Shown here: piece by piece, positions 60,079 to 64,000 of the stretch
Numbering within the stretch: the first letter of the stretch is position 1
Layout: each line of letters opens with the position of its first letter
Origin: an uncultured Desulfobacterales bacterium
GTDB taxonomy: Bacteria > Desulfobacterota > Desulfobacteria > Desulfobacterales > JAHEIW01
Reading direction: 5' to 3'
Assembly: GCA_947259495.1 (NCBI GenBank)
Contig: CAMYLV010000042.1
Span: forward strand, 1-64,000
DNA: 64,000 nt
Notes under the pieces: model-generated
The model's input: the letters and a program-made list of their open reading frames with translations, nothing else
Database searches by the model: none
Told to the model about the DNA's origin: nothing
Made by a program: the position numbers and the translations under genes

Positions 60079-61551
60079 TCAGAAATTACTCAAGCCGGCA
60101 TATTCCTGAATTAGATAAACTATTTTTTTCAGTGCTGACGCATCCTTATAGGCTTCGTAGCTGACCGTATAGTATTTGCCGTCCCGGTTGGCCCAGATCC
60201 TGTCGAAATAATCCGCGGCCGCCTTGATAAAAAGCGCGTCCTCCCCGGCGGTAACCGATATGTTGGCCTCTAAATTGTAATTATTAAGGTTTCTTCTGGT
60301 AAAATTTGCAGACCCCAGAAGTAATGAGGCCTCCTTGCCGTGTTTTATGATCGCCAGTTTGGAGTGGAACTGTTCGCCGTGCGTGTCGTACCATCTGATT
60401 TCGATCTTGCTTGACGACCTCTTAAGGAGTTCCTCTGCGACCGGCCGGTTTGGGATCCCGATTTTTTCGAAGCCGAACGCGTCTTTGTTCGGATCGAGAA
60501 TAACCTTAATATGAACGCCTCTCTGCGAGGCATTAACGAGCTCTTTGATTATTTGCCGGTCCGCTAAATAAAAAATAGCCATATTTATTTCATCATCAGC
60601 GGTTGTTTCACTGATACGAGCCAAAAGCTCCTTTTTTATCTGGTTCTCGGTAAGGAATACAATTTTCGCATGCTCGGCTTCGAGCCTGATGTTCTCATCG
60701 AGTCCTACTGGCGGACCCTGGAGCGCACGGCCGGATAACTTGGCGACGGCCGCCTCGGCGGCATAGACATCCTGCCAGAGTTTACCGGTTATTTTTAAAG
60801 CAACGTTCGAATGGGCGGAGCTGCCGTCATGCGGATTACCCGACGTCATAATCACCGCTGTATTCTCTTCCTGGTCAGCCATAAAGATCTTCCGGTGATT
60901 AGCCTTGAAATTAAGCATATCGAAATAACTTCTTAAAGTTACTTTCGGCTCGCCCCCGGTAAAGGGGTGCGGTATCAGTCCGTAACTGCTCGAGTTCCCG
61001 AACCATTGGATAAAAGTCCGCCAAAAGGCAGAGTAGATCGGATTCGAGTCCGGTAATGCCTTAAGATCGGTCACTATCACGTTAACACCGATACCTTTTA
61101 ATTTCTCGATCTCCGTATTTATTGCCCCGCCGTAAACCGTATTGATCGGGTCGGTTATAAAATCGATCTCGATATCGGGGTTGGCTTCTTTTTTCTTAAC
61201 TAATCTTTCGGTAAGTTCAGGGGTCAGATGGCGATAAATCTTGTTCGGTTCGCGAGTATAAGAGTTAAATAAAAAAGCATCGATTAAAATATACTGTTTT
61301 GCCCCTTCGATCAGGGAAAAAACCTCATCGAAGATCGTCTGTTCGGAGATAATTTCGCCGTTAAGGTTCTCATAAGTAAGGTCGTAAAGAAATTCGATGT
61401 TCTCAACATATATATCCCGTTCTTCTCCCCGGAAATCGAGATTTTCCGGCAATTTCTTCGTGATCTGGTAAAAACCGACGAATAGGACCCAGACCAATAG
61501 TATTAAAATGATTTTTTTTATTTTTTTCATGTCTAAAGTATAATTTTTCAT
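60079..61551 (-). CDS. Phospholipase D/cardiolipin synthase-like protein
   Basis: 490 residues. N-terminal membrane helix (about 12-30; IILILLVWVLFVGFYQI) then two PLD modules: NHRKIFMADQEE...TSGNPHDGS and FHSKLAIIKHGKEASLLLGSANFTRRN, the HxK(x4)D-type catalytic pair (the first copy with a slightly variant spacing). Likely a membrane phosphatidyltransferase or nuclease-like PLD. AAGGGACGTA before the ATG is a good ribosome binding site. Codon use is more AT-rich than neighbours, possibly acquired. Single gene with a family A element upstream. Confidence 0.88.
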   Translation of the reverse strand: MKNYTLDMKKIKKIILILLVWVLFVGFYQITKKLPENLDFRGEERDIYVENIEFLYDLTYENLNGEIISEQTIFDEVFSLIEGAKQYILIDAFLFNSYTREPNKIYRHLTPELTERLVKKKEANPDIEIDFITDPINTVYGGAINTEIEKLKGIGVNVIVTDLKALPDSNPIYSAFWRTFIQWFGNSSSYGLIPHPFTGGEPKVTLRSYFDMLNFKANHRKIFMADQEENTAVIMTSGNPHDGSSAHSNVALKITGKLWQDVYAAEAAVAKLSGRALQGPPVGLDENIRLEAEHAKIVFLTENQIKKELLARISETTADDEINMAIFYLADRQIIKELVNASQRGVHIKVILDPNKDAFGFEKIGIPNRPVAEELLKRSSSKIEIRWYDTHGEQFHSKLAIIKHGKEASLLLGSANFTRRNLNNYNLEANISVTAGEDALFIKAAADYFDRIWANRDGKYYTVSYEAYKDASALKKIVYLIQEYAGLSNF

Positions 61552-61896: not shown

Positions 61897-62706
61897 TCAA
61901 GATTCAGGAGCCATTTCCACATCATGCTGGAGAACACGGTAAGTCTGAATGGGATAATGGAACCCTTTAACCTCAATGGTGCCGATTTCCTCGCAAGGTA
62001 TCTCATCATTAACCAGGGCCCACGAAGTATGTGAAAGATATATCTCACCGGGTTGACAGGCCTGTTCCAAGCGAGAAGCAAGATTTGTGTTCAGGCCGAT
62101 GGCAGAATATTCCATAAATCCTTCGGAACCATAATTGCCTACATTGGCCATACCCGTATGAATGCCGCATCGGATGTCGAAAGGAAATTGGATACCCTGG
62201 TTCCACCATTTCTCTCGCAGGGTTTTCATCTTCACTTGCATCTCCAGCGCCATACGTAAACACGCTAAAGCATCTCCTCGCTCTCCCTTTGAATCCGGTG
62301 CCCCAAAGATTGCATAAATGCTATCCCCGGTAAACTGCGGGATGGTTCCACCCCATGTCCGGACGATCTGAGCCATCTCCCCTAAATATTCATTGAGCAA
62401 CTTTGCCACATCTTCAGGATCAGAAGCGTCGGTAAATTGGGTGAAATCCTTGATATCGGAAAAGAACATCGTCAACTTTGTTCGCTTGTGAGACAGTTCT
62501 GCTGAAAATTCACCCTTGAATATTTTTTCAGTTATATTCGGATCAATGTACTTCGAGATTTGTTCCTGGGCTTTTTTGAGTCTCTTGTTGATTTCTTCCA
62601 AAGCGTTCGACTTCGTGGTGAGCTCCTCTTCGCGCTTCTTCAGGTCCGTAATGTCGGAGTAAATTGCGACATTTCCGCCATCCCCGGTTTTGCGTTCAGT
62701 GATCAT
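61897..62706 (-). pseudogene. 3' part of split receptor adenylate/guanylate cyclase
   Basis: 269 codons from the ATG at 62706. It starts inside a PAS domain: the same frame just upstream reads HHDPGEPRIQQRSGGQWIMITERKTGDGGNVA, clearly PAS sequence, back to a TAA at about 62770. A coiled coil and a class III cyclase domain follow (LTMFFSDIKDFTQFTD with metal-binding Asp, GDSIYAIFGAPD). All of the cyclase domain looks intact. The ATG overlaps the stop of the upstream ORF as ATGA, so a coupled second protein might still be made. Which nucleotide is cyclised is not certain. Confidence 0.85.
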
Positions 62707-64000
62707 AATCCACTGACCACCACTACGCTGTTGGATCCTTGGTTCACCCGGGTCATGATGAAAGGCTCCTTATACCGGGTGTTACAAAGCACCAAACGGT
62801 CATCAGGATCGAAGAACGCGAAGCCTTCAGATGAATTTTCAATGGCATCGATTAGCCTTCGACGGGCCGTTTCAACGTCGCGTAAATTGTTTTCTTCAAC
62901 TTCGATGGCCGTATCGCGAAAAACGACCAGGGACTCTGTCATGCGGCCGATCTCGTCATCACTGCCGGGTTCCGGCAACGGTGTTCTCAGGTTGCCGCCG
63001 GCAATCGCGAGCATGCTATTGCTGAGTGCGGTCAATCTGGCAATCAGGTTACGCCCCACATAGAGCCACACGATGAGAAAAGAGCTCACGAGGCTCAAAG
63101 CAGCGATGGCGATCAAAATGTTTCGGTTAAGCGTCTGGATCCCTGCAGCCTGGAGGTTGGCTTTCTCAGTATCCGATTTCGCGCGATCTACCAAAAAGCG
63201 TACTCTGTTGGTCAGAAATCTCGACAGCCGCACGTTGACAGCCAAAAGCTTTTCGGCCTGAGCGATGACGGCCAATTCATTCTTTCTGATCAGCGAGAGA
63301 CTGTTCGAGCCAACGGTGAGACCCTCAAGCATCGCGACCTGTTTCGCGAGACGCCTTTTCGCGCGTTTTGAAACGATCAGAGAGACCTCATACAGTTCCT
63401 GGAGAGATTTTTTCAAAGGAAATGTCAAGACATCAATCCGTTCAGGGGTATCCGCGTCTGCTATTTTGAGGAGATCGTTGTGAATTGAGTCAACCAGAAG
63501 CGCGGCCCTCTGTTGGGGAATCAAGCCAATTATCGAATTCACAAGATCCAACTTTTCCTTTGACGATGGGTTTGCTTTGGCCTTTTGTTGATTTCTACTC
63601 CAATCCGCTATCTGGGCACCGAGGATGCGCTCACCCGGCGACAGCATTCGCTGGGCGACAATATTGGCGCTGGAAAGGTCACGAATTCGTTTGTCTTTGA
63701 GCACGGCAATGGAAAGCCTTTTATTCACAAGCTTATCCAGGCTAACGAGATTTTCGGTCACGTCAGTGACAAATTTTACGACATCAGCCGTTGCGGTCTT
63801 TTCTTCTTCGGTCTCATAGCTTCTGCCGCGCTGCAGAAACGGCTCAAGCTCTTCGACTTGCAAGGCGATTTCATTCGAAACGTCCATCCGTGCCCTATCG
63901 GTTTTCACCACCAGCAGGGCGGGTGCCGCGCGCACAACGCTTTCCACGCGCCGTGACAGCTCCAGCCAGGACAGCGCTTCAGGCACACGTTGCTCGGTGA
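62703..64000 (-). pseudogene. 5' part of split receptor cyclase (partial at window edge)
   Basis: Runs off the right edge, so the true start is outside; a GTG at 63986 is probably internal. A long helical sensor region of the TorS-like kind (LPQQRAALLVDSIHNDLLKIADADTPERIDVL-type), a membrane helix (about 63065-63130, NILIAIAALSLVSSFLIVWLYVG), HAMP, and the start of a PAS (AIENSSEGFAFFDPDDRLVLCNTRYKEPF). The PAS breaks after YKEP and is followed by 16 out-of-frame residues. About 50-60 PAS residues are missing compared with normal domains. With the ORF at 61897 it formed one HAMP-PAS-cyclase. Confidence 0.82.

Follow-up and report, generated by a model that had tools for sequence, protein, structure and literature searches.

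The window analysed here, a 64,000-nt stretch of contig C42 (CAMYLV010000042.1, 64272 bp), covers most of a minus-strand gene (contig 64142..61897) that encodes a HAMP-PAS_7-class III cyclase receptor. The gene is read as two open reading frames, the upstream one starting 142 bp past the window end. The locus comprises the following features:

Contig 64142..62703 (window part 62703..64000), minus strand: upstream ORF of 479 aa, the membrane receptor half.
62706..61897, minus strand: downstream ORF of 269 aa, with the PAS end, a linker and a complete class III adenylate/guanylate cyclase catalytic domain.
62707..62766, minus strand: PAS remnant HHDPGEPRIQQRSGGQWI in the cyclase frame, 5' of its ATG.
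62766..62767, minus strand: deletion junction GTATAAGGA / GCCTTTCATCATG, where all four intact orthologues have 133 nt.
62703..62706, minus strand: ATGA, in which the upstream-frame stop overlaps the cyclase-frame ATG.
63511..64000 (window part), minus strand: variant stretch, in which C38:1-762 matches C42:63511-64272 at 93%.

In the upstream ORF, a HAMP domain is followed by a PAS_7 fold that breaks off after its first ~26 positions; 20 out-of-frame residues and a TGA come next. Its PAS is readable to NTRYKE, after which PFIMTRVNQGSNSVVVVSGL runs to the stop. The PAS_7 profile (PF12860) aligns over positions 1-26 of 115 and scores 19.4 bits against a cut-off of 27; in the one intact orthologue scanned, it covers positions 1-115 with 72.3 bits. 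In the cyclase half the end of the PAS alone remains, and further PAS residues are encoded in the same frame ahead of its ATG. Both the out-of-frame run and these stranded residues had been described in the initial annotation, which also held the cyclase domain to be intact. This agrees with our data, since PF00211 matches residues 76-258 of the downstream ORF at 86.2 bits (cut-off 21.9) and the catalytic motifs FFSDIKDFT, FTGDSIYAIFG and NLASR are all present. We take these motifs to supply the two metal-binding Asp as well as the transition-state Asn and Arg.

At the positions that specify the substrate, Gln and Ser are found in the window copy and in the intact orthologues instead of the adenine-contacting Lys and its Asp/Thr partner, and the nucleotide substrate of the cyclase is therefore uncertain. 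The replacement of the usual Lys by Gln and of Thr/Asp by Ser extends over the cyclase subfamily (61897-62706 in the window; loci L033-L035 and L058, and also L060 and L072), while more distant cyclases such as L014 and L015 have Asn or His at the Lys position. The metal-binding and transition-state residues are conserved in the subfamily. By sequence, the closest solved class III cyclase domain (residues 71-260) is the catalytic domain of CyaB (PDB 3r5g), the Pseudomonas aeruginosa enzyme. CyaB carries the Lys (DKFVGD) where the window subfamily has Gln (PQFTGD), and Thr where the subfamily has Ser. The nearest subfamily members (73-74% identical cyclase domains) were considered as natural short forms and rejected, as they are 480-aa proteins with a different, apparently membrane, N-terminal part and not split PAS receptors.

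Comparison with orthologues, which had been proposed together with the first description of the locus, placed the break exactly. In a search of 389 genomes, three orthologues of full length were recovered, their frames open over 793-814 codons, and a fourth (SOIH01000100.1, locus L058) came from a species-genome scan. Each of the four is 792-794 aa long in a single continuous frame, and only the window copy has the deletion. Aligned to these four, it lacks 133 nt, i.e. 44 codons plus 1 nt of the PAS fold, and the frame is shifted. The shift had been recognised before, but the earlier estimate of 50-60 missing PAS residues was too high. A few terminal 3' bases aside, this is the sole indel across the gene's 2246 bp in the alignment to the four orthologues. 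The lesion that disables the window copy relative to its intact orthologues is thus the deletion with its frameshift, as in a frameshift pseudogene; a second disabling lesion was not seen against the four orthologues, and the window is free of N bases. No other split copy occurs among the orthologues found, every one of which is a single gene.

The orthologues on NZ_JABZFL010000041.1 (Desulfobacula sp.), JAHOYS010000147.1 (Desulfobacterales MAGs) and SOIH01000100.1 share the domain order of the window gene, lie like it downstream of a Peripla_BP_6 gene, and are 90-96% identical to it at the DNA level over the cyclase part. Unlike the window copy, they have a continuous 792-aa frame, a full PAS and a CTG at the restart site. 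In the intact genomes the cyclase is found just downstream of the Peripla_BP_6 gene, and the same partner is present at the end of C42 and in C38. The closest relative of the window gene, at 96% DNA identity across the cyclase portion, is that on SOIH01000100.1, a 3.3-kb contig bearing the cassette and binned as Anaerolineales, which is probably a misbinned contig or a recent transfer. The cassette is sporadic: searches of the three further genomes of the genus did not recover it, and few of the genomes sampled from the order and the phylum carry it. For a receptor-cyclase gene with such an accessory, sporadic distribution, loss would plausibly be tolerated. In genome G353, an ORF just upstream of the cassette (L051, 2579-3937) reads by eye as transposase-like, a possible hint of mobility. 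Next to the window cyclase lies a PLD-like domain protein of 490 aa (60079-61551), for which no counterpart was recovered from the three further genomes of the genus either.

The position of the lesion calls for caution. It lies 1.5 kb from the end of C42, which falls inside the binding-protein gene, and the same genome bin holds a second contig, C38, whose first 762 bp dovetail with the terminal 762 bp of C42. The binding-protein gene follows in C38, and after it come 141 Ns (1648-1788), which probably mark a scaffold gap, although the retrieved sequence also has some stretches masked as N. Positions 1-1647 of C38 represent another variant of the binding-protein/cyclase cassette; it is 93% identical, with block-wise divergence, is cut by the contig start, and its 3' half was not found in the bin. 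The C38 stretch could be an additional copy or the strain form of a single locus. Such a difficult region, together with a window gene that has no other lesion and shows normal constraint, would fit an artefact in which two cassette variants were wrongly joined, or a defective minority sequence was used, while the gene of the organism is intact. However, a false join normally needs a repeat shared at the breakpoint, and none fits: a direct repeat with 133-nt spacing, which a repeat-collapse misassembly would need, was not seen in an intact orthologue. Moreover, orthologue identity changes gradually across the junction, so that there is no sign of two different genes meeting there, and the rest of the assembly contains no leftover of the missing segment. 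We consider an artefact unlikely, although it ranks second among the explanations.

Other origins of the junction were also considered. Repeat-mediated deletion was rejected because flanking repeats at the 133-nt spacing are absent, and a mosaic or chimera because orthologue identity along the gene does not jump at the break. Relocation of the PAS segment was dismissed after a search across the genome did not find it elsewhere. The junction sequence itself is absent from viral contigs and from the fetched loci other than C42.

The overlap of the cyclase ATG (62706-62704) with the upstream TGA (62705-62703) is as first reported. ATGA is a standard geometry of termination-reinitiation, in which a Shine-Dalgarno motif often, but not always, helps (PMC6728339), and it is common to the stop/start of such gene pairs and of the window pair. 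Unlike the pairs described there, the window overlap came from a deletion within one gene plus a private substitution, and coupling is putative. The geometry would suit a natural split receptor, kept by selection, in which termination-reinitiation yields a liberated, soluble 269-aa cyclase coupled to the truncated receptor. In line with this, the ATG is derived in the window copy, all four intact orthologues having CTG, and the complete cyclase half has evolved under normal constraint along the window branch. Several observations argue against it. The sequence directly 5' of the ATG is much as in the intact copies, and no Shine-Dalgarno motif was evident there by eye. Over the 858 bases aligned in the cyclase half, the window branch has about 23 polarised changes, so that one creating an ATG would be unremarkable. 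The truncated receptor ends in a broken PAS and 20 foreign residues, and none of the orthologues found provides a second split example. A special RNA structure at the restart was rejected, as the hairpin is weak (z -1.7). We therefore regard a selected split receptor as improbable and the least likely of the three main explanations. A gene fission caught at birth, in which the deletion and the ATGA-making substitution would have created a two-protein operon with a selected soluble cyclase made by coupled restart, appears more doubtful still.

Selection on the window branch was estimated from changes polarised against two outgroups, a crude count on few sequences. The window branch carries 62 synonymous and 60 nonsynonymous changes in the upstream half and 15 and 8, respectively, in the cyclase half, with an estimated omega of about 0.36 and 0.17. 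These values are near those between intact pairs (0.18-0.35 upstream, 0.06-0.13 cyclase), and under simple Poisson modelling neutral evolution could cover no more than about 20% of the branch that began with the divergence from SOIH01000100.1. Relaxed selection or further decay, which would be expected only for an old lesion, was not seen on this branch, where omega and indels are as in intact genes. The ordinary purifying selection in both halves therefore means that the break either arose recently, or is limited to a strain, or is tolerated, alternatives which this test cannot separate; a recent deletion explains the low omega as well as a maintained split receptor does.

Overall, we favour as probable, and as the most likely of the explanations, a young frameshift pseudogene, i.e. 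a receptor cyclase broken by one recent 133-bp deletion in its PAS. A recently broken gene is preferred because there is a single frame-shifting deletion and none of the other occurrences of the gene that were found is interrupted. The initial annotation had allowed for a dying gene, a natural split receptor or an assembly error; the first is favoured in this more specific form, while the split receptor is unsupported, given the lack of a second example, the private ATG and the absence of an evident Shine-Dalgarno motif. Two observations run counter to a pseudogene: both halves look maintained with no second lesion, and the contig end is near in a bin with a second variant of the cassette. We infer that the deletion is present in the DNA of the organism, is recent and leaves the receptor non-functional.

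The ancestral gene would have encoded an N-terminal sensor with a membrane anchor, followed by HAMP, PAS_7, linker and cyclase, its usual place being right after a Peripla_BP_6 binding-protein gene. A single, recent loss of 133 bp from the PAS-coding stretch would have shifted the frame and truncated the receptor ahead of the linker and catalytic domain, and with this truncation the ligand-controlled cyclase output would be lost. A little uncoupled, unregulated soluble cyclase might still be made via the ATGA restart. The locus also illustrates that genes near contig ends of fragmented assemblies should be checked before they are called split. As found, the locus represents an accessory signalling gene with an ordinary lesion; if both halves were made and selected, it would instead be a datable gene fission by frameshift and restart.
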